A stretch of 64,000 nt of DNA from Phaeobacter inhibens DSM 16374. Lineage in GTDB: Bacteria; Pseudomonadota; Alphaproteobacteria; Rhodobacterales; Rhodobacteraceae. The stretch spans positions 1 through 64,000 of the forward strand of contig NZ_AXBB01000008.1 of the NCBI RefSeq assembly GCF_000473105.1, in the 5' to 3' direction. Below, piece by piece: positions 35,246 through 47,268 of the stretch. The notes beneath the pieces were generated by a model. It searched no databases, was not told the DNA's origin, and saw nothing but the letters and a program-made list of their open reading frames with translations. The stretch's first letter is position 1, and each line of letters begins with the position of its first letter. A program made the position numbers and the translations under genes.

Positions 35246-35303
35246 AGGTCAGCATGATTGACTAAATGTTTCGCACGCGAAACATTTAGTCCGAACCGGA
35301 CCT
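35246..35303 (+). repeat. 58-bp parS-like element, copy 1
   Basis: The core is a 28-bp palindrome (35262-35289): 13-bp arms from CTAAATGTTTCGC to GCGAAACATTTAG around AC. Inside are TGTTTC (35267-35272) and GAAACA (35279-35284), the half-sites of the classical ParB site parS but with a 6-bp instead of 4-bp centre. A second small dyad, GTCCGAACCGGAC, follows, and TAGGTC/GACCTA close the ends. Copy 2 at 41057-41114 matches at 53 of 58 positions in the same orientation. The pair brackets ugd-parB-parA-ori-rep. A partition centromere is the best reading. Confidence 0.75.
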
Positions 35304-35419
35304 ATTTCTCGTATGCCCAAAATTCCGGTTCCCGCCCCCATCGCGCCCGTATATGTCTGATCCCCAACACCCCGCCCCTTCAAGCGGGGGACATGAGGCA
35401 ACAGCAAAGGACCGCCCCC

Positions 35420-36724
35420 ATGCGCATTGCAATGATTGGCACCGGATATGTCGGATTGGTCTCCGGCGTCTGCTTTTCCGACTTTGGCCATGACGTGGTC
35501 TGCGTCGACAAGGACGCCGCCAAGATCGCCCGGCTACAAGCCGGCGAGGTGCCGATCTATGAGCCGGGGCTGGAGGATCTGATGGCGCGCAATGTGGCTG
35601 CGGGCCGGCTGTCCTTTACCGATGATCTGGCCGCCGCCGTGGCCGAGGCCGAAGCGGTGTTCATCGCCGTTGGCACGCCAACACGGCGCGGCGATGGTCA
35701 TGCCGATCTCACCTATGTGATGGCCGCCAGCGAGGAGATCGCCGCCGCCCTGCAGGGCTATACCGTGGTGGTCACCAAATCGACCGTTCCCCTGGGCACC
35801 AACCGGCAGGTGAAACAGGTGATTGCCAAATCCAACCCGGCGGCAGATTTCGATGTGGCCTCCAACCCGGAGTTCCTGCGCGAAGGGGCGGCGATTGATG
35901 ATTTCATGCGCCCCGACCGGGTGGTCGTCGGCGTGCAGAACGACCGCGCCGCCGAGGTCATGGCCGAAATCTACCGGCCATTGTATTTGCGCGATTTCCC
36001 GATCCTCACCACCGATCTCGAAAGCGCCGAGATGATCAAATATGCCGCCAATGCGTTTCTGGCGACCAAGATCACCTTCATGAATGAAATCGCAGGCCTC
36101 TGTGAGCGGGTGGGATCAGACGTCAAGGAAGTCGCCCGTGGCATCGGGCTGGACGGGCGCATCGGCAATAAGTTCCTGCATGCCGGTCCCGGTTATGGCG
36201 GGTCGTGTTTTCCCAAGGATACCGCCGCGCTGGCGCGCATCGGTCAGGACCACGCCTATCCGATGCAGATCACCGAAACGGTGATGCGGGTCAATCAGGA
36301 GGTAAAAGCCCGGATGCTGGAGAAGCTGCGCGACGCCTGTGACGGCAGTTTCAACGGCAAGACCATCGCGGTGCTGGGCGTCACCTTCAAACCCAATACC
36401 GATGACATGCGCGAGGCGCCCAGCCTCACCATCGTGCCGGCCCTCATTGGGGGCGGCGCCAGGGTGCGGGTGGTGGACCCGCAGGGCGAGGCCGAGGGGC
36501 GCGATCTGCTGCCCGGTGTGAAATGGGAAGAAGATCCCTATAAGGCCGCGCGCAATGCGGATCTGGTGGTGCTGTTGACGGAATGGAATGAATTCCGCGC
36601 CCTCGATCTGAAGGCGCTGGCGCGCAAGATGGCGCAGCCCCGGATGGTGGATCTGCGCAATATCTACACCGCCAAAGCCGCCAAACGCGCCGGGTTTGAG
36701 ACCTATATCGGAGTGGGCCGCTAA
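35420..36724 (+). CDS. ugd: UDP-glucose 6-dehydrogenase
   Basis: 434 residues; the usual size. It oxidises UDP-glucose to UDP-glucuronate with two NAD+. MRIAMIGTGYVGLVSGVCF is the Rossmann start; AVGTPTRRGDGHADLTYV, SNPEFLREGAAIDDF and GYGGSCFPKDTAAL with the catalytic Cys263 are enzyme-specific; VLGVTFKPNTDDMREAPSL opens the C-terminal domain. The ATG at 35420 has AAAGGA 8-9 bases upstream. A longer frame from 35258 only translates the parS-like repeat. It lies between that repeat and the convergent parB gene. Confidence 0.96.
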   Translation: MRIAMIGTGYVGLVSGVCFSDFGHDVVCVDKDAAKIARLQAGEVPIYEPGLEDLMARNVAAGRLSFTDDLAAAVAEAEAVFIAVGTPTRRGDGHADLTYVMAASEEIAAALQGYTVVVTKSTVPLGTNRQVKQVIAKSNPAADFDVASNPEFLREGAAIDDFMRPDRVVVGVQNDRAAEVMAEIYRPLYLRDFPILTTDLESAEMIKYAANAFLATKITFMNEIAGLCERVGSDVKEVARGIGLDGRIGNKFLHAGPGYGGSCFPKDTAALARIGQDHAYPMQITETVMRVNQEVKARMLEKLRDACDGSFNGKTIAVLGVTFKPNTDDMREAPSLTIVPALIGGGARVRVVDPQGEAEGRDLLPGVKWEEDPYKAARNADLVVLLTEWNEFRALDLKALARKMAQPRMVDLRNIYTAKAAKRAGFETYIGVGR

Positions 36725-36751
36725 ACCCACCCGGTCATCACCCCAAACACA

Positions 36752-36785
36752 AAAAGACCCTGATACAGCTGTATCAGGGTCTTTT
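36752..36785. terminator. bidirectional terminator between ugd and parB
   Basis: A perfect 34-bp palindrome: arms AAAAGACCCTGATACAG (36752-36768) and its complement (36769-36785). A-run on the left and T-run on the right serve both converging genes. Confidence 0.92.
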
Positions 36786-36806
36786 CACATCATCCTCAGA
36801 CTCTGT

Positions 36807-37934
36807 TCAGCGGCGGCGCAGCCAGGCCTTCAGGTCTTCCATCAGGGTGCTGTCGACCGCTGTCCCCGTCAGTTCGATCCGCTGCTGGCCGGGGGTGAAT
36901 CCCAGCCGCACGCCAGCGGCGGCCTGCACGCTCACCCGCTCATCCGCGCCAATACGATCCGCCGGATCAAGGCTGCGCACCCGTGGCATCGGGGCAGGCT
37001 GTTCTGCAGGATCCGATGCCCGTTCAGACATCGGGACGGCAGAGGCCGCTTGATCACCAGCGGGGACGGGCATCTCACTCCCCTCATAGGCGGCCAGGAG
37101 CTGGCTCAGCACCGCCTGTTCCGCCTCTGCCGTGGGGCGGGCGGTGGCGCGCAGGGCCGCGACCACCTCATCAGCAAAGCCTGGTGTATTCGCAAAGGCC
37201 CGCGCCAGCCCCAGCCCCAGTTTCTCGCGGATGGCAGTGGGAAACAGCAGATCCTCATCCAGCGCCTCAACCAGGGTGACAAAGCTGCCGATCTTGGAGC
37301 GTTTGGCGCGGGTGGCATTGGCAAACAGCGATTGCAGCGCGTATTTCTGGCTGCTGTAGACCCCTTCGCGCAGCGCCCGCACCGCAATGCGTGCGCGTTC
37401 GTAATGGGAGAGGTTCACCCGGATTTCGTTTTCCTCAACCATCGCCACATAGGCGCCCTCGGCCCCGTCGGGCTGAATCACCAGCGCCTTGATGGTGGCA
37501 AAGGCGGGATCATTGCTCTCGGCATATAGCATGCGCATCGCGGTCAGACGACGCCAGCCGGAGATCAAACCATGGGTCTTGCCATCTGCGGTCTGGCCCA
37601 GGGCCACCACCTCGATCGGGGTCTGCTGGCCGCGGGCGCGCAGGGATCCCACCAGCGCCCCCATCTCTTCCTCGTCCTGCTCCAGCCGGTCGCGCACCAG
37701 ATGGGTCTCGTCGATGGCGCCAAGCGCGATCTCCTCGATCATCAGCCCCTTGGCGCGGGCAGTCTCCAGCACCGCTGTCAGCTCCTGCAGCGCGCCCTCT
37801 GTGGCGGCCTCGGAGGCGACCTGCGCAATCGGCGGCGCTGACAGCGAACCGGGGCCGCCGAGGGCGGATTTGCTCTCAGGCGCGGTGCTGAGATAGGTCG
37901 GCTGTGCCGGGGAAAGCCGTTTGCGTTTTGCCAT
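36807..37934 (-). CDS. parB: plasmid partition protein ParB
   Basis: 375 residues from ATG 37934, which has AAAGGACAGG upstream; a 24-codon extension was rejected. An N-terminal basic tip (MAKRKRLSP) precedes the ParB/Srx nucleotide-binding domain (EEMGALVGSLRARGQQTPIE, then HGLISGWRRLTAMRML, the counterpart of the GERRxRA box). A helix-turn-helix part follows (NEIRVNLSHYERARIAVRAL, FANATRAKRSKIGSFVTLV). The final 100 residues probably dimerise. It should bind the parS-like elements on both sides of this block and work with ParA. It is downstream of parA in one operon (101-bp gap). Confidence 0.88.
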   Translation of the reverse strand: MAKRKRLSPAQPTYLSTAPESKSALGGPGSLSAPPIAQVASEAATEGALQELTAVLETARAKGLMIEEIALGAIDETHLVRDRLEQDEEEMGALVGSLRARGQQTPIEVVALGQTADGKTHGLISGWRRLTAMRMLYAESNDPAFATIKALVIQPDGAEGAYVAMVEENEIRVNLSHYERARIAVRALREGVYSSQKYALQSLFANATRAKRSKIGSFVTLVEALDEDLLFPTAIREKLGLGLARAFANTPGFADEVVAALRATARPTAEAEQAVLSQLLAAYEGSEMPVPAGDQAASAVPMSERASDPAEQPAPMPRVRSLDPADRIGADERVSVQAAAGVRLGFTPGQQRIELTGTAVDSTLMEDLKAWLRRR

Positions 37935-38035
37935 CTGCCTGTCCTTTTTTGTCGCGCCTGGTCTGATTTTGCGGCCCTGTCTGCCCTTGGGGGCTGCCGG
38001 GTGCACAGTATGGGGCGCGGTGTGTTTTTAGCCCG

Positions 38036-39460
38036 TTACTGCGCCGCGCGCTGCATCTGCAACTCATCCCGGCGCCAGACCGCCAGCAGGAGCCGCTTGA
38101 AGGCCGCATAGGTGGCATCAAAGGTCTCGCGCCCCCTCGCGTAGGTTTCGCGGTTGAAATCGCGGTAATCGGCCTCGTAGATGCCATTGACCTGCTCGCC
38201 GGCCTGACCGATCAGCGCGGTGTAATCCTGCCGGTGCGGCGACAGGGTGGGTCCCAGATAGGCCTGCATCAGGGCTGCCAGCTCACCCTGTTGGGCGCTG
38301 TCATAGCGGGTGATCACCGTGCGCACCGCATCCCATTCAAAGGCAATCTCCGGCCGCCCCAGCGCGCGCGCCGCCAGATTTTCGCCCTCCTCGATGGAGG
38401 CGAAGGTCGAATGCAGCATATCGAAAAACCGCCCCGTACTGTCGAATTCCAAGAAAGACGCGCCCATCGGCACCAGAAGGATATCCGCCGCCGACAGCCC
38501 GTTGATGGTCAGGTAGCCAAGGGCCGGCGGCGTGTCGATGAAGATCACGTCGTATTGCTCCAGCACGCCATCAGCCTCCAGCCGCTCGGTGAGCGCATCC
38601 CAGAGCTTCCAGCTGCGCGCGGCCATCCGCCAGACCGGGATCTGGAATTCGGCCCAGTACAGATTGAGCTGCGCGCCGATCAGATCGATATTGGGCCAAT
38701 GGGTGGGCTGGATCACATCCGCTGCCGTCATCTCCATCGCCGCCGACAGGCTGTCGTCCAGCGGCTGGGGCGCATCGCCGCGATCCAGACGGCGCTGGTT
38801 TTCCAGCCGCAGGTGATCGCCGTAGTGGCGCGCCAAGAGCGGGAAGGCGGTCTGCCATTCGTCTTCGACCTTGCCACCAAAGATCGAGGTCATCGAGCCC
38901 TGGCTATCCAGATCAATCACCAGCACCTTGTAGCCATCCAGCGCCGCTGACATCGCCAGATGGGCCGCGGTAGACGTCTTGCCGACGCCGCCTTTGAAGT
39001 TGGCGACAGCGACCATTTTGGCGGGCAGCCCTTCGGGGCGGTAGGGGGTGTAATCCTTGGCCTTGGATCCCTGGGCGGCAAAATGCGCGCGCAGGCGCAG
39101 CACCTCGTCGAGGGTGAACCACTTGGCGCCGCCTTCGGTTTCGGAGCGGCCCTGCGGCAGCTCGGGGTTGGCCTTCAGCACCCGGCGGAAATGGGCCTGG
39201 GCGACCGGGATCAGATAGCGGGTGATTTCCCAGGTGGAGAACAGGCGCAGCGATTTGCGTCCTTCCTCATTCATGCCCCGACTGGAGAGATCCGCACGGC
39301 CGCGGGCGCAGGCCTCGGCGATTTCGGCAAAGCCACCGGTGCTGGTGGGCGTATCCAAATCGCCAAGGGCGGCATCGGGATCGATGTTGAAATAGGGGGG
39401 CAGCCCGGCCGCACTGCGGCTTGGGTCTTTCTTCTGGGTCTCTCGTGCCATTGCTCTCAT
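38036..39460 (-). CDS. parA: plasmid partition ATPase ParA (type Ia)
   Basis: 474 residues from ATG 39460; ATG 39451 is equally possible. The deviant Walker A is NFKGGVGKTSTAAHLA (Lys156-Thr162), with VLVIDLDSQGS and YDVIFIDTPPALG as the other ATPase motifs. The N-terminal 150 residues, with a MerR-like helix-turn-helix region (WFTLDEVLRLRAHF), mark a type Ia ParA that represses its own operon. It moves plasmid copies with ParB. It is divergent from rep across the origin. Confidence 0.9.
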   Translation of the reverse strand: MRAMARETQKKDPSRSAAGLPPYFNIDPDAALGDLDTPTSTGGFAEIAEACARGRADLSSRGMNEEGRKSLRLFSTWEITRYLIPVAQAHFRRVLKANPELPQGRSETEGGAKWFTLDEVLRLRAHFAAQGSKAKDYTPYRPEGLPAKMVAVANFKGGVGKTSTAAHLAMSAALDGYKVLVIDLDSQGSMTSIFGGKVEDEWQTAFPLLARHYGDHLRLENQRRLDRGDAPQPLDDSLSAAMEMTAADVIQPTHWPNIDLIGAQLNLYWAEFQIPVWRMAARSWKLWDALTERLEADGVLEQYDVIFIDTPPALGYLTINGLSAADILLVPMGASFLEFDSTGRFFDMLHSTFASIEEGENLAARALGRPEIAFEWDAVRTVITRYDSAQQGELAALMQAYLGPTLSPHRQDYTALIGQAGEQVNGIYEADYRDFNRETYARGRETFDATYAAFKRLLLAVWRRDELQMQRAAQ

Positions 39461-39634
39461 GCCTCTGCCTGCGCCCCTTCCATCAGGAAGATCTCCGAAG
39501 AGCCTCTTTGATGTGCGGCCTTTTGCGGATGATAGCAGAAAACAGCGCACATGAAAGATATATGCGCATCTCTTTTGAATTTTCTAAGCAAATCCGGGGG
39601 TTGCGGCATTAAAATCGGCAGGCTCCGGGGCGAT

Positions 39635-39664
39635 GCCCGTGGTGATTTTGCCCGTGGAGATTTT
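39635..39664 (+). repeat. two 15-bp tandem repeats in the origin
   Basis: GCCCGTGGTGATTTT (39635-39649) and GCCCGTGGAGATTTT (39650-39664) differ at one base. They sit at the left edge of the AT-rich stretch, like the short direct repeats in duplex-unwinding elements. Confidence 0.7.
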
Positions 39665-39766
39665 TTCTACCTGTTATTATTGAGTTATATATAAGTTAAG
39701 GCGCAACACGCATAGGCGCAAAGCCCTTTTTTCATTGGCGATGAGGCGCTTTTTTTCGGAGCATGC

Positions 39767-39832
39767 GATTCTGAAACCCCGATAGACTGACTCTGATCCC
39801 CCGAAGCAGTGACTCTGAACCCCCGTTGAGAA
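39767..39832 (+). repeat. three 22-bp iterons
   Basis: Units start at 39767, 39789 and 39811 with shared core GA(T/C)TCTGA followed by 2-3 variable bases and CCCCGA or CCCCGT. They are exact head-to-tail 22-bp spacings, about two helical turns each. They are the likely binding sites of the initiator encoded just downstream. Confidence 0.85.
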
Positions 39833-39836
39833 GTGG

Positions 39837-39845
39837 TGTGGATAA
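39837..39845 (-). promoter_or_regulatory. DnaA box
   Basis: TGTGGATAA, the exact complement of the consensus TTATCCACA, four bases after the last iteron. Confidence 0.8.
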
Positions 39846-39948
39846 CTTTAGGGTGGGCGTAATCAAAACCACGAAGACGCGAGTCACCCCGAAAGAGGCC
39901 AAAAGGCCCGGACAGACGGGGGGCGGGCAGAGCAGACAGGACAGTGAC

Positions 39949-40974
39949 ATGGCAGGCCAGATTTCAGGCCCGGTTTTTGGCCAGATGACCGCAGGCGGCG
40001 GGGCGCAGCGCGGGGATTTTTTCCTCTGCGATGTGTTTGATGCGATCCCCAAAAACGATCTTGCCTCGATGGAGCATCCGCTGTTCTCGCTGGGGACCCG
40101 GCCAGACCGGCGCATTCTGAACTATGAACACAATGGTGCCGAGATCACTGTGGTGCCCTCGGTCAAAGGGCTGGCGACGATCCACGACAAGGATATTCTG
40201 ATCTTCTGCATCAGCCAGCTGATGGCGGCGGTGAATGCCGGCCGGCAGGTCAGCCGCACGCTGCATCTCACCGCCCATGATCTGCTGGTGGCGACCAACC
40301 GCGAGACCTCGGGCGATGCCTACCGGCGTCTGCGCGAAGCGTTTGAGCGGCTGGCCGGCACCCGCATCACCACCAATATCGTCACCGGCGGGCAGGAGGT
40401 CACCAGCGGCTTTGGTCTGATCGAGAGCTGGGAGATCGTGCGCAAGGCGCGCGGCGGGCGCATGGTCAATGTGGTGGTGACGCTCAGCGAATGGATCTAC
40501 CGTGCGGTGCTGTCGAAATCGGTGCTGACCCTCAGCCGCGATTACTTCCGGCTCCGCAAGCCGCTGGAGCGGCGCATCTATGAGCTGGCTCGCAAACATT
40601 GCGGTCGCCAGGACAGCTGGCAGATCTCGGTAGAGGTGCTGTTGAAGAAATCCGGCTCCGCCAGCCCGCGTCGGGTGTTTCGCAAGATGCTGCGCGACAT
40701 GATTGCGGCCCAGCCCTTGCCGGATTACGCGATGGAGGAGCTGCCGGGGGATCTGATCCGGTTTTCCCAGAAACACGCAGTGCTCGACAACAGCCAGCGC
40801 CCGCCGGTGCTGAGCGCGCGGACGCTGGAACAGGCCCGCAGCCTGATCCCCGGTGTGGATGTCTATGCGCTGGAGGCCGACTGGCGCACGATGTGGGTGC
40901 GCTCCGGCGCGCCGCGGTTGCGGCGACCCGATGCGGCATTTTTGGGCTGGGTCAAGAAACGCGCCACGGAATAG
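39949..40974 (+). CDS. repA: plasmid replication initiator (RepA/RPA superfamily)
   Basis: 341 residues from ATG 39949 (AGGA 7 bases upstream; a 41-codon extension would translate the DnaA-box region). The segments HPLFSLGTRPDRRILNYEHN, VPSVKGLATIHDKDILIFCI, GDAYRRLREAFERLAGTRIT and LSRDYFRLRKPLERRIYELA match the replication-initiator family (PF10134) of alphaproteobacterial plasmids. It should bind the iterons upstream and open the origin. With divergent parAB this is the layout of roseobacter RepA-type replicons. Confidence 0.9.
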   Translation: MAGQISGPVFGQMTAGGGAQRGDFFLCDVFDAIPKNDLASMEHPLFSLGTRPDRRILNYEHNGAEITVVPSVKGLATIHDKDILIFCISQLMAAVNAGRQVSRTLHLTAHDLLVATNRETSGDAYRRLREAFERLAGTRITTNIVTGGQEVTSGFGLIESWEIVRKARGGRMVNVVVTLSEWIYRAVLSKSVLTLSRDYFRLRKPLERRIYELARKHCGRQDSWQISVEVLLKKSGSASPRRVFRKMLRDMIAAQPLPDYAMEELPGDLIRFSQKHAVLDNSQRPPVLSARTLEQARSLIPGVDVYALEADWRTMWVRSGAPRLRRPDAAFLGWVKKRATE

Positions 40975-41056
40975 GGCAGGGGGGGCTACCCCTTTGTCAG
41001 AGCCGCATATGAGGGCGTTCTCAAATCAGGCAGATCTGGCAGACAGACCCTGAAAT

Positions 41057-41114
41057 AGGTCAGCATTATTGTCTAAATGTTTCGCGTGCGAAACATTTGG
41101 TCCGAACCGGACCT
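41057..41114 (+). repeat. 58-bp parS-like element, copy 2
   Basis: Same structure and orientation as copy 1 (35246-35303), with five differences in 58 bases. The centre of the palindrome is GT instead of AC and both arms stay perfect over 11 bp (AAATGTTTCGC/GCGAAACATTT). It lies 83 bp after the rep stop. Confidence 0.75.
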
Positions 41115-41253: not shown

Positions 41254-42657
41254 TCAGCCATTCCCCTCTCTCAAGGCGTTCGACATGCTGCGCAGCACCG
41301 GGCTGAGCAGGTAATCCGCCAATGTCTGCCGGCCTGTCTCGATCATCGCCTGCGCGGGCATGCCGGGCAGGGTTTTGACATTGGGCAGCGCCGCCAGCTC
41401 TTCGGGCGGAATGCGGATGTGAACGCGGTAATAGGGAATGCCGCTGTTGAGATCGGCGATACTGTCAGCGGCCACCATCACCACCTCGCCCCGGACCGGC
41501 GGGGTGGAGCGGAAACTATAGGCGGTGAGCTGCACCCGGGCCTGCCCGCCGGTCACCACCTCGTCAATATCGGTGGGCGAGACGCGTGTTTCGACAATCA
41601 GATCGCTGCCCGAGGGCACCAGCTCCAGCACATTCTGACCCGGGTTCAGCACCTGACCCAGGGTGTTGATGGACAGTTCCACCACCCGGCCGGCCTGCGG
41701 CGCGCGGATGATCTGGCGCTCCAGCACATCCTCTGCCGCATCCAGCCGCTGGCGCAGATCCAGAATGCGTTCCTGCACCAGCTGGGTTTCGCTGGAAATC
41801 CGGTTCACCGTGTCGCGGTGAACCTGCAGGATGCGCTCCTCGGTTTCGGCAATGCGCTCCTGAATGTTTTCGCTGTCGCTTTCCAGCGCGCCAAAGGTGC
41901 CCATCAGCCCGGTGTGTTGCAGCTGCCGGTCACTGAGCCGGGTTTTGGGCACCAGACCTTTTTCATAGAGCTTGTGCAGATCGGCGACCTCGCCCTTGAT
42001 CAGGGTCAGCTGATCCTCAATTGCGGTGATCCGCGCCTGCCGCCCGTTGAGCTGCTTGCCCAGCTGGGAAATCCGGTCACGCAGGATCTGCACCTGCCCT
42101 TCATAAAGGGCGCGGTTGCTGGTGAAGACATCGCGCTGCACCTCAAACAGGGAGACCAGCTGCGGATCTTCGGCAATCAGCTGGTCCAGCTCTGCCGGGA
42201 CTTCAATCTGATCGGCCTCAGCCAATTCGGCCTGCAGCCGGGCCTGCTGGGCCAGCAGGCTGGCCATCTGGCTGGTCAGAATGGCGCGGCTGGCGCGCAT
42301 CCGGCGCCCGTCCAGCACCGCAATCACATCCCCTTCGGCGACCATATCGCCCTCGGCCACATTGATCTCGCGGACGATGCCGCCCTCCAGATGCTGCACG
42401 CTGAGCCGGTCGCCCGCCACGGTAAATTGCCCCGAGGCCACCACGGCGCTGGTCATCTCGGCCTGTGTGGCCCAGAACACCAGCCCGCCAAACAGGCCAA
42501 AGCCGCAGACCAGCATCCACATCACCAATTGGCGCACGCGGGTGGGCGGGGTGCGGGGCAGGGCAAAGCCATCCGGCATCAGGTCCTGAAAGCCACGGCT
42601 CATTTCAATCTCGCTGCCCTTGCGGGGCACCAGATCTCTGCTGTCGCTGCTGCTCAT
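41254..42657 (-). CDS. type I secretion membrane-fusion protein (HlyD/PrsE family)
   Basis: 467 residues: a cytosolic tip of about 40 residues, one membrane helix (VMWMLVCGFGLFGGLVFWAT), a lipoyl-like half-motif QHLEGGIVREINVAEGDMV, a long coiled-coil region (about 120-320), the second half-motif IIRAPQAGRVVELSINTLGQ, and a C-terminal beta domain ending in GMPAQAMIETGRQTLADYLL. It is coupled to its ABC exporter by an ATGA overlap and probably secretes the RTX protein encoded just upstream. Sequence motifs differ from the first HlyD protein (16466-17773), so this is not a recent copy. Confidence 0.92.
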   Translation of the reverse strand: MSSSDSRDLVPRKGSEIEMSRGFQDLMPDGFALPRTPPTRVRQLVMWMLVCGFGLFGGLVFWATQAEMTSAVVASGQFTVAGDRLSVQHLEGGIVREINVAEGDMVAEGDVIAVLDGRRMRASRAILTSQMASLLAQQARLQAELAEADQIEVPAELDQLIAEDPQLVSLFEVQRDVFTSNRALYEGQVQILRDRISQLGKQLNGRQARITAIEDQLTLIKGEVADLHKLYEKGLVPKTRLSDRQLQHTGLMGTFGALESDSENIQERIAETEERILQVHRDTVNRISSETQLVQERILDLRQRLDAAEDVLERQIIRAPQAGRVVELSINTLGQVLNPGQNVLELVPSGSDLIVETRVSPTDIDEVVTGGQARVQLTAYSFRSTPPVRGEVVMVAADSIADLNSGIPYYRVHIRIPPEELAALPNVKTLPGMPAQAMIETGRQTLADYLLSPVLRSMSNALREGNG

Positions 42658-44423
42658 GACTGTGTTCCTTCTGTGGCACTGGCTGCGGCGCTGGCGTCAG
42701 TCCCGGCCCGGGCCTCACGGCGGGGCGTGAAATTTGTGACCTTGGGATCGCCCTCTGGCCGGCTGATCGGCTGGGCGGCGGCCTCGATGATCTGACGGGC
42801 CTCGCCAAAGCGGGCGATGCGCCCCTCCTGCACCAGGGCGGCATGGCTGACCCGGCGCAACAGGTTGAGCCGATGGGTCACCACCACCACGATGGCGCCG
42901 CGGGCGCAGGCCTCCTCGATGGCGGCGGCCAGGGCCTCTTCGCCTTCGGGGTCGAGATTGGCATTGGGTTCATCCAGCACGATCAGCTTGCGCTCGCCAA
43001 AGAAGGCGCGCGCCAGACCGATGCGCTGGCGCTGACCTGCGGAGAGGAAACTGCCGCGCGGGCCGACCTCGGCATTATACCCGCCGGGCAGGGCCAGGAT
43101 CAGCTCATGCACCCGCGCCAGTTTGGCAGCGGCCACCACATCCGAGGGTTTGGCGCTGGGGTCCATCATGGCGATGTTTTCGGCCACGGTGCCGCGGAAC
43201 AGCTCCACCTGCTGCGGCAGAAAGCCGATGTGGCGGCCAATCTGTTCAGGGTCCCAGTCGGTGAGGGCGGCATCATCGATGCGCACATGCCCCCGCACCA
43301 GCGGTTGCAGCCCCACCAGCGCGCGGGCCAGCGTGGTCTTGCCGGCCCCCGACGGGCCGATCAGCCCCAGCGCATGGCCCGGTTGCAGCGACAGGGTGAC
43401 ATCCAGCAGCAGCGGATCCTGCCGCCCCGGCAGCACCACGGTGGCATTTTCCACCGACAGCCGCCCTGTGGGATCGGGCAGTTCCATCCGGTCACTGGTG
43501 TCCTCGGCATGGGCCAGAAGCAGGTTCAGCCGCTCCTTGGCGCTGCGCGCCTTCAGCAGGGCGCGCCAGCCGGCGATGGATTGCTCCACCGGCGCCGCCG
43601 CCCGGCCCAGAAGGATCGAGGAGGCAATCATCAGCCCCGGTGTCAGCTGGTTGTTGATCACCAGCACCACGCCCACGCCCAGCACCGCGATTTGCAGCCC
43701 CATGCGCACGGCCTTGGCCAGCGAGGTCATCAGTGCCACCCGGTCGGTGACCAATGTGCCAAAGAGGATCGCGGTAAAGGCGCGTCCGCGCCAGCGGCCG
43801 ATCTGGGCAGAGGTCTTGCCCATGGCGTGGATGATCTCGGCATTGACCATCATTTCGTCAACCGCGGCATTGGTTTCGCGGGCGGCCTCTTCAGAGGTTT
43901 TGCCCGGTCCGCGCCCCATCAGTTCGCTCAGCACACCAAGGCCCAGCAACAGCAGCAGCCCGGCCACCGCCACCAGCCCCAGGATCGGGCTGAATACAAA
44001 GATCAACGCGATGAACAACAATGACCAGGGCGCATCCAGAAGCGCGATGAACACCGGGCTGGTGACAAAGCCGCGCAAGTCCTGAATATCGCGGATCGGT
44101 TCCGCGGTGCGCAGTTGCGCAGGCAGGTTGCCGCTGATCATCCCTTGCAGGACAACCGGGCTGAGCCGCGCTTCCAGCCGCGAGCCGAGGCGGGCGACCA
44201 GGCGTTGGCGAATGACATCAAAAAGAAAAAAGAACACCAGCGCGATACACGCGCCGGTGGTCAAAGCAATCAAGGTTGGCATGCTGCCCGAAGCCATGAC
44301 CCGGGCAAACAATTGCAACATGTACAGCGGCGCTGTCAGGACAAGCAGGTTAACAAAGATACTCGCTACAAAAATTGAGGTGATAACACCCCGTTGTCCG
44401 TCAAAGACCCGTTTCGTCTTCAT
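42654..44423 (-). CDS. type I secretion ABC permease/ATPase
   Basis: 589 residues. The membrane domain starts ITSIFVASIFVNLLVLTAPL; the ATPase has Walker A GPSGAGKTTLARALVG, signature FLSAGQRQRIGLARAFFG (LSAGQ rather than LSGGQ) and Walker B KLIVLDEPNANLDPEG. No C39 domain. The C terminus has a tail of about 50 residues after the ATPase. It lies 162 bp downstream of the RTX gene on the same strand, with a strong hairpin between. Confidence 0.92.
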   Translation of the reverse strand: MKTKRVFDGQRGVITSIFVASIFVNLLVLTAPLYMLQLFARVMASGSMPTLIALTTGACIALVFFFLFDVIRQRLVARLGSRLEARLSPVVLQGMISGNLPAQLRTAEPIRDIQDLRGFVTSPVFIALLDAPWSLLFIALIFVFSPILGLVAVAGLLLLLGLGVLSELMGRGPGKTSEEAARETNAAVDEMMVNAEIIHAMGKTSAQIGRWRGRAFTAILFGTLVTDRVALMTSLAKAVRMGLQIAVLGVGVVLVINNQLTPGLMIASSILLGRAAAPVEQSIAGWRALLKARSAKERLNLLLAHAEDTSDRMELPDPTGRLSVENATVVLPGRQDPLLLDVTLSLQPGHALGLIGPSGAGKTTLARALVGLQPLVRGHVRIDDAALTDWDPEQIGRHIGFLPQQVELFRGTVAENIAMMDPSAKPSDVVAAAKLARVHELILALPGGYNAEVGPRGSFLSAGQRQRIGLARAFFGERKLIVLDEPNANLDPEGEEALAAAIEEACARGAIVVVVTHRLNLLRRVSHAALVQEGRIARFGEARQIIEAAAQPISRPEGDPKVTNFTPRREARAGTDASAAASATEGTQS

Positions 44424-44539
44424 ACCCGTGACCCCCCGGTTGCACGATGTGAAGTTACTGAAGCTGGCAGATCAGCGCCCTGGTCCAAGGTGGCAATCCT
44501 TGGCCGGGGACCAAATCGCTGTCCTGAACCAGGGCTAGA

Positions 44540-44574
44540 CCCCCCCGGATGGCGGCCGCCACCCGGGAGGGTCA
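44540..44574 (-). terminator. strong hairpin between the RTX gene and its exporter
   Basis: CCCGGATGGCGG faces CCGCCACCCGGG with one mismatch and almost no loop, starting 12 bp after the RTX stop. It lacks a T-run, so it may act as an attenuator or 3' stabiliser that yields more RTX than exporter message. Confidence 0.5.
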
Positions 44575-44585
44575 TTCCTTATGGC

Positions 44586-46904
44586 TCAGATGGTGTGACC
44601 CCAGATGTTGTCGTAGCTGTCATCGAAGCCGTCATCGCTGGTCACGACACGGATCGCCTCGTAGCTGCCGGCATCACCGGTGGTGACCGCATTGATCCCG
44701 ACGCCACCCGAAGGCAGAGCGTCCTGGCCAAGCGAGCTGTAGCCGTTGACATTGGTCAGACCTTTGATGATCACGGTGGCCCCACCAGCAGAGATGGTGG
44801 TGTCGGTGCCATCGTCATTGACCGAAGCGGCCCCGTCATTCAGTGCCGCAAAGGCATCCTGTGCCGAAGTTCCGATCCCATCGCCGACATTGGTCACGCG
44901 GAAGGCCAGCACGTCGTGGTCTTCGTCGATATCAAAGTCATTGATGCAGTCGATCCCATCACCGGAGACAAACGAGGTGCCATCCCATTCCAGGTCGATG
45001 ATGAAGACATCCTTGCCATTGCCACCGGTCAGATCGTCATCTCCCGCGCCACCTTTCAGGTAGTCGTTGAAGTTGCCGGCCCCGCCATGCAGCGTGTCAT
45101 TGCCTTCACCGCCATCCAGGAAGTCATGGCCACGGCCACCATCCAGATTGTCATCGCCAACTTCGCCATAGAGGCAGTCGTCGCCGTTGTCGCCATTCAG
45201 GTCGTCAGCGCCGTTGCCGCCCAGAAGAACGTCATCGCCATTGCCGCCGTTCAGCTCATCGGCGCGATTGTCACCCATCAGCAGGTCGTCGCCATCATCG
45301 CCGTTGACGGTGTCTTTGCCGTCGCCGCCGCTCATGACGTCATTGCCAGTGCCGCCGTGCATCAGGTCATTGCCATGACCACCATACATGGTGTCGTCGC
45401 CTGCATCGCCATACAGCGTATCGGCCTGGTTGTTACCATAGATCAGGTCATCGCCATCGCCGCCTTTGACGGTGTCGTTGCCAGAGTTGCCGTATAGCAG
45501 GTCGTCGCCGACATTGCCGTGGACGCAGTCGTCGCCTTCGTTGCCATAGAGCGTATCATTGCCCTGGTTGCCATAAAGACGGTCCCGTCCGGTGCCACCA
45601 TAGCCTTCGTCGAAGCCACGACCGCCGATGATGACGTCATTGCCGGCTTCGCCGTACATGGTGTCATGGCCGGAACCGCCGCGAATGCGGTCATTGCCGG
45701 ATTCACCATAGTCGTAAGGCGTGTAGCAGTCGGGGCAGTCGACATCGCGCAGATTGGTTTCATCGCTGCCAGCATGCGATTGCGCGACGACTTTGTCGTC
45801 GTCATCGCAGCAGCTCCAGTCGATGTCATACCCGGCCTTGACCCGGCCATGGTCCCCAAAGATGAGGTCGCCCTGGGCACCGCCTTCGAGAACGTCATTG
45901 TCGCTGCCGCCGCGGATGGTGTCCTTGCCAGCATCGCCATTGACGTCATCACGTCCGGCACCACCGTCCATCAGATCGCGACCACGGCCGCCCTGCATCA
46001 GGTCGTCGCCGTTTTCGCCGAACATGGTGTCACGGCCGCCCTGACCATCCATGGTGTCATGGCCTTCGCCACCCAACATGCAGTCATGGCCATCTTCATT
46101 GGGACCTTTGCCAACCGGACCGCTGTCCGCGCCAAAGTCGAGATCGTCGTTCTGCGACTGGCGTTCGTCACCGAACATCTCGTCGTTGCCGGATCCACCG
46201 ATCACCAGGTCGTCGCCAAGACCACCTGCCATCCGGTCGTTGCCGCCCTGACCGTTCATCCGGTCATTGCCGCCACGGCCATACATGGTGTCATCGCCGT
46301 CGTAGCTGGTTTCGCCGGACTGACCTTGATCACCCCACATGCAGTCGTCACCACCTTCGCCGTCCATGCAGTCGTCGCCGAGATCGCCGTAGAGGTAGTC
46401 ACCGGCATCGCCGTTGTCCTCGTTGCCGTCGCCGTCATCACCAAAGATCTGGTCGTTGCCACTGCCGCCAAACACAGTGTCCTGCTCCTTGCCGCCCAGC
46501 AGCGAGTCATTGCCGTTTTCACCGTCGATGTAATCGCAGCCATCGCCGCCATCGATCCAGTCATCCCCGTCACGGGTCTGATGGGTGCCATTGCCACCGA
46601 ACAGGGTGTCATTGCCGCCATCGCCATTGATGGCGTCATCGCCGCCGCGGCCTTCGATATAGTCCTGGCCGGACTGACCATCGAGCCGGTTGTTGCGCCC
46701 GTTGCCATAGACGGCGTCATTGCCGCCGCCGGCCGCGGCGTTGTCGCCAGCGTCGTGGTCGTTCAGGTTGATGATATTGCCGTCGGTGCCACCACGTTCG
46801 GTGGTGCCATCGTTGTAATTTGGTGAGAACTTGTCATCGCTGAATTCGATTTCGCACTCAGGATTGCAAACTTCCCAGTCTGGGTTGTCGTCTGGTCTAC
46901 CCAT
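44586..46904 (-). CDS. large RTX calcium-binding protein with cysteine motifs
   Basis: 772 residues, very acidic. After an N-terminal 45 residues (DWEVCNPECEIEF) come more than 30 RTX-type repeats (about 60-630), interrupted near residue 375-425 by a non-repeat insert with SCCDDDDK and DCPDCYTPYDYG. The last 140 residues are a beta-rich export region ending DNIWGHTI, not the DDFxF end of the other RTX proteins here. About 13 cysteines are visible, unusual for type I cargo. The start at 46904 is fixed by AGGAGG 9 bases upstream. Its exporter follows. Likely a surface or matrix protein. Confidence 0.88.
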   Translation of the reverse strand: MGRPDDNPDWEVCNPECEIEFSDDKFSPNYNDGTTERGGTDGNIINLNDHDAGDNAAAGGGNDAVYGNGRNNRLDGQSGQDYIEGRGGDDAINGDGGNDTLFGGNGTHQTRDGDDWIDGGDGCDYIDGENGNDSLLGGKEQDTVFGGSGNDQIFGDDGDGNEDNGDAGDYLYGDLGDDCMDGEGGDDCMWGDQGQSGETSYDGDDTMYGRGGNDRMNGQGGNDRMAGGLGDDLVIGGSGNDEMFGDERQSQNDDLDFGADSGPVGKGPNEDGHDCMLGGEGHDTMDGQGGRDTMFGENGDDLMQGGRGRDLMDGGAGRDDVNGDAGKDTIRGGSDNDVLEGGAQGDLIFGDHGRVKAGYDIDWSCCDDDDKVVAQSHAGSDETNLRDVDCPDCYTPYDYGESGNDRIRGGSGHDTMYGEAGNDVIIGGRGFDEGYGGTGRDRLYGNQGNDTLYGNEGDDCVHGNVGDDLLYGNSGNDTVKGGDGDDLIYGNNQADTLYGDAGDDTMYGGHGNDLMHGGTGNDVMSGGDGKDTVNGDDGDDLLMGDNRADELNGGNGDDVLLGGNGADDLNGDNGDDCLYGEVGDDNLDGGRGHDFLDGGEGNDTLHGGAGNFNDYLKGGAGDDDLTGGNGKDVFIIDLEWDGTSFVSGDGIDCINDFDIDEDHDVLAFRVTNVGDGIGTSAQDAFAALNDGAASVNDDGTDTTISAGGATVIIKGLTNVNGYSSLGQDALPSGGVGINAVTTGDAGSYEAIRVVTSDDGFDDSYDNIWGHTI

Positions 46905-47268
46905 CTTAAACATCCTCCTAATTAATATACCGGGAGTGTGTTGCGCCCCCCGACGCGACCCGCCCCCTTTAGAAACCTGACCAGGGAAAAATGGGTGTGG
47001 GACCTGGCCAGTGACACAAGACCGCTTGGGTCTCTGATGATGAGTGCACCGCAAATCGGGCGGGGCGGATGCCCCCAAATGGGGACAAATTCATATTAAA
47101 TTGTTGGTTTCCGGAAGCGCTGTGCCAAGACTGGGTGGATGACCGTGCAAAGACATGTGGAACAGGCACGAAAGCCCAGACCCGGGCAGATATTTGGGAC
47201 AGGCTTGCTGCCAGGATCTGGCGCAGCGCCTCCGGAAGAGAGAAGACTCTTTTTTCCTTTATTAGAGC
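46905..47268 (-). other. upstream region of the large RTX gene
   Basis: 364 bp with no gene I can support. A 67-codon plus-strand frame (47069-47272) has no ribosome site. Read leftward, the last 20 bases before the ribosome site are AT-rich (GGTATATTAATT), a probable -10 region; I see no clear -35. The region should hold a promoter separate from the regulator genes upstream. Confidence 0.5.
46914..46919 (-). promoter_or_regulatory. ribosome site that decides the RTX start
   Basis: AGGAGG directly abuts an ATG (46913-46911), too close for initiation, and stands 9 bases before the next in-frame ATG (46904-46902). The second ATG is therefore the likely start. Confidence 0.7.

Follow-up and report, generated by a model that had tools for sequence, protein, structure and literature searches.

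Partition systems compared with the elements of pInhi_D69

A plasmid partition system is generally expected to require sites that differ from those of the chromosome. Here we analyze two 58-bp parS-like elements that enclose the ugd, parB, parA and rep genes of the plasmid pInhi_D69 of Phaeobacter inhibens T5 (DSM 16374), together with further copies of their 18-bp core in this and related genomes. The window covers bases 1-64,000 of contig C5 (68,567 bases), in a genome of six contigs and 4,130,897 bases. Judged from sequence comparison, the elements are very likely the parS sites of the RepA-I-type ParB encoded between them, and what appears to be the same plasmid-type centromere is kept in ten copies on the host chromosome and dispersed in several other genera. 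In searches of open-licence PMC papers, we found no earlier description of this plasmid-type parS on a roseobacter chromosome, nor of a conserved, dispersed set of such centromeres on a host chromosome. In the excerpted text of PMC4062626, C5 corresponds to pInhi_D69 (68,567 bp), a RepA-I replicon with a rhamnose operon, and contigs C6 and C1 to the chromosome of P. inhibens T5; the RepA-I type is taken from this naming and from the initiator family PF10134.

In chromosomal ParABS, the Spo0J-type parS TGTTTCACGTGAAACA has the same outer half-sites, TGTTTC and GAAACA, and likewise lies near parB. The window elements are not of this canonical form, differing by a centre of 6 instead of 4 bp and by an A-to-G change in the half-site, and the canonical pair of this genome stands apart, as two perfect TGTTTCACGTGAAACA at C6:2663332 and C6:2665244 (2663 and 2665 kb) near the chromosomal parB at C6:2666769. 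Noc is a chromosome-encoded ParB relative with many dispersed chromosomal sites. It resembles the present case in combining a ParB-related protein, here the candidate reader, with many sites on the chromosome, but in our case that candidate is encoded on a plasmid, together with ParA and with a replicon of its own.

The parS of repABC replicons, with the consensus GTTNNCNGCNGNNAAC, is also an alphaproteobacterial plasmid centromere near rep and par genes, and several parS are found per replicon, some of them distant (PMC9040568, excerpted text). The present locus departs from this type in its core, GTTTCGCNNGCGAAAC, and in its initiator, an RPA protein (PF10134) instead of RepC; the parS treated in those excerpts lie on repABC replicons, whereas here copies are also found on the host chromosome. 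A plasmid-type parS on another replicon is described in the excerpts of PMC10954446 for SGI1, which carries the parS of IncC plasmids and uses it with the plasmid ParAB, and two strains are mentioned there with 3 and 4 chromosomal IncC parS copies unlinked to SGI1. In the SGI1 case there are mostly two copies, inside an integrated mobile element, whereas about ten are dispersed here at conserved gene junctions. Signals or proteins that couple a chromosome to a secondary replicon also appear in the excerpted part of PMC13342612, as crtS of Vibrio cholerae, one region for replication timing, and as ParB-RepB contacts at the origins of Agrobacterium; one region or origin contacts are concerned there, and many dispersed parS copies here.

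The 58-bp elements and the ParB encoded between them

Copy 1 (35246-35303) and copy 2 (41057-41114) are composite elements of a left dyad, a core and a right dyad, both on the forward strand. They are identical at 53 of 58 bases, the longest shared run being 16, and the repeat (family D1), when widened without gaps, retains 87% identity over 70 nt. As the first-pass annotation had read from the letters, both contain a TGTTTC/GAAACA pair with a 6-bp centre and a second dyad, GTCCG-AAC-CGGAC. The pair is found without mismatch at these two places only in the window (a third match has 2 mismatches), and the dyad lies to the right of the core (35289-35301 and 41100-41112). The left flank also has an imperfect dyad, GGTCAG...TTGAC in copy 1 and ...TTGTC in copy 2. 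The half-sites are better taken as 8 bp, TGTTTCGC and GCGAAACA, around a 2-bp centre, and the core is 2 bp wider than chromosomal parS. A pattern search of the window and genome places the core 18-mer at 35267-35284 on the forward strand in copy 1 and at 41078-41095 on the reverse strand in copy 2, the central dinucleotide being AC and GT, respectively, i.e. inverted relative to the flanks.

Three window matches at up to 2 mismatches are not unusual for 64 kb, as 14 of 100 shuffles get there; the excess over chance lies in the long repeat and in the genome-wide count of the 18-mer. The canonical form with a 4-bp centre has two matches in the window, each with 2 mismatches. It had also been suggested that the two direct repeats could recombine and excise or exchange the enclosed block as a cassette. 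This idea finds no support here, since the uninterrupted identity of just 16 bp is short for homologous recombination, although no search for a recombinase was made.

The probable reader of the site is the ParB of 375 residues encoded at 36807-37934 on the reverse strand. It matches the NCBIfam families TIGR03454 (partition_RepB, E 6.8e-15) and TIGR00180 (parB_part, E 8.9e-8), both below the curated cut-off, and has no Pfam match at 0.001. The ParA ATPase of 471 residues (38036-39451, reverse strand) matches Pfam AAA_31 (E 8e-30) and TIGR03453 (partition_RepA, E 4.6e-60, below the cut-off), and the replication initiator RepA, the RPA protein (39949-40974, forward strand), matches PF10134 (E 8.9e-102). 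The predicted ParB model, with a mean predicted local distance difference test (pLDDT) of 75.8 and a predicted template modelling score (pTM) of 0.52, retrieves Noc, KorB and ParB crystal structures in Foldseek, the Noc structures being the best matches (best E 1.1e-6, with low TM-scores). These matches span the first two domains, ParB/Srx and helix-turn-helix; the C-terminal part, where a dimer domain would be expected, is modelled as strands and a helix, and the matched structures are truncated there. Across 16 aligned homologues GWRR is invariant and ENE(I/V)R nearly so, and by homology the plasmid ParB would be a CTP-clamp-type partition protein.

Two sets of loci relate the core to this ParB. 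Twenty were chosen among places with an exact core, close pairs and small contigs being preferred, and 15 of them encode homologous ParA, ParB and Rep. The converse set was drawn from the 28 genomes with this ParB type but no exact core, and in 18 of the 20 taken a core with one or two changes lies within 4 kb of parB; at three loci (L170, L181 and L182) the identical change occurs in both half-sites, and the remaining two (L169 and L183) have palindromes of related sequence near parB. In the 35 parB-bearing loci, of which 15 were selected for the exact core and 20 for its absence, 33 have a core with no more than 2 mismatches at a distance of 4 kb or less from parB, and in 32 this distance is at most 600 bases; the same test on 175 dinucleotide shuffles of whole loci gave none (0/175). 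The window sites, at about 1.5 and 3.1 kb from parB, are farther away than in most homologous loci. A similar layout, with three cores around the par-rep block, is found in Leisingera sp. S132, and P. inhibens DSM 17395, whose ParB is 99.2% identical, has one core in the examined stretch, which stops at the record end. The elements thus provide what marks a parS, a palindrome linked to a parAB operon, and the earlier parS reading is well supported, including its view of the centromere as a composite, which is supported as a core plus arms by comparison of the copies: at each of the 12 genomic sites similar arms can be made out by eye to one side of the core or both, and arms of other kinds are found in other lineages.

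Two side observations concern cores beside ParB proteins of other genomes. In G015, a 664-kb contig has five cores within about 500 bases (C1:597001-597501, locus L071), next to a ParB homologue. A second core type, GGTTTCGC-NN-GCGAAACC or near it, adjoins a second, lower-scoring ParB group (G277 C108 and G035 C6) and is also present on other contigs, three in G277 (C70, C81 and C97) and one in G035 (C1); it is possibly the same phenomenon in another plasmid type.

Chromosomal copies, their positions and their arms

The exact 18-mer TGTTTCGCACGCGAAACA occurs 12 times in the genome, 2 on the plasmid C5, 9 on C6 and 1 on C1, with none on the other contigs. Besides the reverse complements of these sites themselves, no relative with 1-2 mismatches was found in the genome; there are two matches with 3 mismatches, and the reversed control gave 0 matches. 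With the centre left free, 13 matches at up to 2 mismatches stand against 12 exact ones, and the reversed control gave 1. All 12 cores are exact while their flanks differ. The central dinucleotide is AC/GT in all 12 P. inhibens T5 copies, and GC and AT are common in relatives.

The wider centre had been proposed as a barrier between the plasmid ParB and chromosomal sites. Separation from the canonical origin-proximal parS of the host is plausible, given the two perfect TGTTTCACGTGAAACA beside the chromosomal parB, but the notion that the plasmid ParB is kept off the chromosome is undercut by the 10 exact plasmid-type cores there. The first-pass annotation had further held that the element's occurrence at many places without parAB would speak against parS. 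Such places do exist in number, yet the association with this ParB persists; what shifts is the meaning of the element, and the parS reading stands.

Comparison of the proteins beside the sites reveals that many positions are conserved. In G075, of the same genus, nine of the ten chromosomal sites are matched by a site, the exception lying at 1681 kb. At six of the ten (576, 1080, 1364, 1964, 2274 and 2777 kb) a site occupies the same gene junction in another genus, the counterparts coming from G238, G293, G277, G244 or G035; for example, a site lies about 110 bp downstream of the same GcvT-family gene in three genera. In G238, 4 of 5 sites are at the same junctions as in Phaeobacter. The 19 proteins flanking the ten chromosomal sites, including RuvX, RuvB, chorismate synthase, NAPRTase, GcvT and ABC-F, have no common function or pathway, and no transposase was found among them. 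Even spacing along the chromosome was considered and set aside, being suggestive by eye in P. inhibens T5 but not in G035 or G075.

Gene context was scored in 19 genomes for 95 sites that were chromosomal or unassigned: 38 lie between convergent, 35 between tandem and 11 between divergent genes, and 11 inside a called gene, compared with 17 convergent, 58 tandem and 28 divergent gaps in the background of the same loci (n=103). Convergent gaps are enriched (38/84 sites vs 17/103 in the background, p 2e-5) and divergent ones are not (11/84 vs 28/103). These counts leave out 18 later dispersed-site regions and count sites at orthologous junctions more than once.

The arms around the core differ among lineages. 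P. inhibens T5 sites have GGTCAG-N5-CTGACC-like arms on one or both sides, and the strict hexamer CTGACC/GGTCAG is near the core in 10/12 of them, as in 5/5 sites of G238, 10/10 of G293, 7/7 of G279 and 8/9 of G149. In G035, about 125 bp of conserved blocks, GCCGACAAATTTTTT, GATCAAGGGCTTCCAGAGATT and GGTTAACG, surround the core in 15 copies, the plasmid site included (L112-L124, L059 and L067). By eye, G092, G131, G106 and G108 are partly like G035, G277 is different again, and G133 and G015 have little. GTTAAC is near 12 of the 14 chromosomal sites of G035; it was dropped as a general companion motif because only 1 of the 12 P. inhibens T5 sites has it. At the ABC-F junction, a site is present in both G000 (1364k) and G035 (1783k) with different arms, implying that positions can outlast arms and that arms can change together within a genome. 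The plasmid arms resemble those of the genome's own chromosome in five of ten genomes (G000, G075, G035, G293 and G092; mean 0.50-0.62, random 0.31, the 99th percentile of single random pairs being 0.46). This agreement suggests one and the same reader for all the arms, or an exchange of sequence among copies. G035 is probably Dinoroseobacter shibae; the excerpts of PMC9426580 call the 153-kb RepA-I replicon of this species a chromid, and the ParB of G035 starts at 62,250 on C3 (152,970 bases).

In a family-wide sample, the core, with any central dinucleotide, is present in 68 of 295 genomes, nine of which have 10-18 copies. Each of the seven Phaeobacter genomes searched has 9-13, plasmid-borne copies counted, and the core was found in none of 24 genomes from other families of the same class. 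A scan of named species gave at least 119 core stretches, and most of 80 titles are by eye roseobacter-type, with a few from other groups; this ParB is encoded in 26 of those stretches, which are at most 8 kb long and in some cases end at contig ends. When a genome is called ParB-positive at an A1 profile E < 1e-90, a cut placed by eye in a narrow score gap with the scores already seen, 84 of the 295 have this ParB type. The exact core occurs in 56/84 ParB-positive and 12/211 ParB-negative genomes, with 28 having ParB alone and 199 neither (Fisher, p 2e-27). ParB is present in 9/9 genomes with at least 10 copies (p 9e-6), in 17/19 with at least 4 and in 24/28 with at least 3.

Some further matches were noted in these searches. 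Two exact cores on one contig of the gammaproteobacterium Vreelandella nanhaiensis (L233) are among the matches listed, possibly through transfer of this plasmid type or through contamination. The phage collection gave no match, and among viral contigs there were 12 stretches.

One ParB on two replicons as the probable reading, and the alternatives

The reading that one ParB acts on both plasmid and chromosome, including a general coupling model, seems to us probable. It starts from the repeats, the adjacency of core and parB, the chromosomal copies with their conserved positions and the arms shared in some genomes; binding and function are inferred. The RepA-I-type ParAB would use the enclosing 58-bp elements as its centromeres. 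The same centromere stands at about ten intergenic chromosomal positions here and in several related genera, many fixed across species or genera, and the plasmid ParB would most likely load on both replicons. Loading on the plasmid would drive ParA-dependent partition. On the chromosome, dispersed ParB islands could couple the plasmid to it by bridging or co-segregation, or organise the chromosome, or both. A wider claim, which we put forward only tentatively, is that a ParB encoded on a plasmid or chromid is a resident chromosome-organising or -tethering factor of roseobacters, with about 8-16 chromosomal parS copies, many conserved in position across genera. The accessory replicon and the main chromosome might then be segregated or held by one shared centromere, whose arms change together on both replicons in several lineages. 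If ParB does act on both, the system would be tractable for studying how a plasmid becomes a chromid and if a chromosome can be organised by the partition proteins of a plasmid.

Several observations weigh against a ParB shared by the two replicons. At the cut applied, 12 of the 68 core-positive genomes are without this ParB, among them G279, G238, G106 and G108 with 7, 5, 3 and 3 copies, and no ParB of this type accompanies the 9 copies in the Phaeobacter draft G295 (92% complete, 160 contigs). G238 has exact cores at 5/5 sites without any form at 1-2 mismatches, i.e. no decay is seen in the absence of ParB; the extra 1-2-mismatch matches in such genomes (0 in G238, 4 in G279, 1 each in G106, G108 and G295, and 3 in G244) show no clear sign of decay compared with 0-9 in ten ParB-bearing genomes. 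Plasmid loss, an assembly gap or another reader could explain the ParB-negative genomes. Many ParB-bearing genomes have few or no further core copies, so that the plasmid does not need chromosomal sites. The Fisher tests take related genomes as independent and the copy counts include plasmid-borne sites, which makes the p-values optimistic. As for the arms, half of the ten genomes compared have no clear match between plasmid and chromosome (G149 0.35, G133 0.36, G131 0.37, G015 0.37 and G223 0.42), and in G000 and G075 the plasmid arms match the chromosome of the same genome (0.50) no better than they match the G293 chromosome (0.51 and 0.53). Finally, four of the five dispersed G015 sites are called inside genes, although some in-gene calls stem from the start-codon choice of a simple gene finder.

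The persistence of exact sites in those 12 genomes and in G295, together with the 4 of 5 Phaeobacter junctions kept by the ParB-negative G238, would also be expected if the chromosomal copies were read mainly by a chromosome-encoded protein (Noc-, MatP- or repressor-like) and the plasmid had adopted this host signal as its parS. We consider this rather unlikely, since the plasmid ParB is present in every genome with at least 10 copies, changed cores stand beside parB in genomes without the exact form, and draft assemblies can miss plasmids. The profile scores of the other ParB_N proteins in this genome also weigh against it. The window ParB reaches 424 bits on this profile; of the six others, four lie on other plasmids, with 249, 159, 47 and 16 bits, and two on the chromosome, with 13 and 7. 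One of the latter, an additional orphan protein with a ParB_N domain (C6:497717-497983, L153), is related to the plasmid ParB only remotely and, with its 7 bits, was set aside as the site reader.

The flanking blocks of up to about 125 bp shared by copies within one genome, as in the 15 copies of G035, could instead mark the chromosomal sites as functionless remnants left by a small palindromic mobile element that came from the plasmid, and the surplus of matches at up to 2 mismatches over exact ones (21/12 in G293, 17/11 in G277, 16/10 in G092 and 20/15 in G035, a few of them of the second core type; reversed controls 0-1) points the same way. Positions that are orthologous between genera despite differing arms, as at the ABC-F junction, exact cores amid differing flanks in P. 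inhibens T5 and the absence of a transposase among the 19 neighbour proteins make this improbable. It is also quite unlikely that the sites are operators for nearby genes, acting through ParB or another protein in the manner of KorB regulation: KorB is among the structural matches of ParB and some sites lie upstream of genes, but it is convergent and not divergent gaps that are enriched, and the scanned neighbours are functionally unrelated. Bidirectional terminators or REP-like hairpins would be palindromic and often lie between convergent genes, as these elements do; an exact 18-mer without near variants in P. inhibens T5, its adjacency to parB and the sole Rfam match in six loci, one tRNA, render this explanation scarcely credible.

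Two further candidates were dropped. A serine- or tyrosine-recombinase site had been suggested by the asymmetric AC/GT centre of all 12 P. inhibens T5 copies; in relatives the centre is also GC or AT, and AG/CT occurs twice among the listed places. An RNA element was likewise rejected, as Rfam on the 6 loci matched nothing but a tRNA.

Of the remaining genes near the elements, ugd (35420-36724, forward strand), between copy 1 and parB, encodes a UDP-glucose/GDP-mannose dehydrogenase according to Pfam. A longer open reading frame (ORF) beginning with a TTG at 35258 would cross copy 1, and this TTG is unlikely to be the real start. Beyond copy 2, at 41254-47078, lie an HlyD-family adaptor, matched in Pfam, and two further ORFs, one of ABC type and one with glycine/aspartate-rich repeats; from their layout they are predicted to serve type I secretion of an RTX-like substrate.

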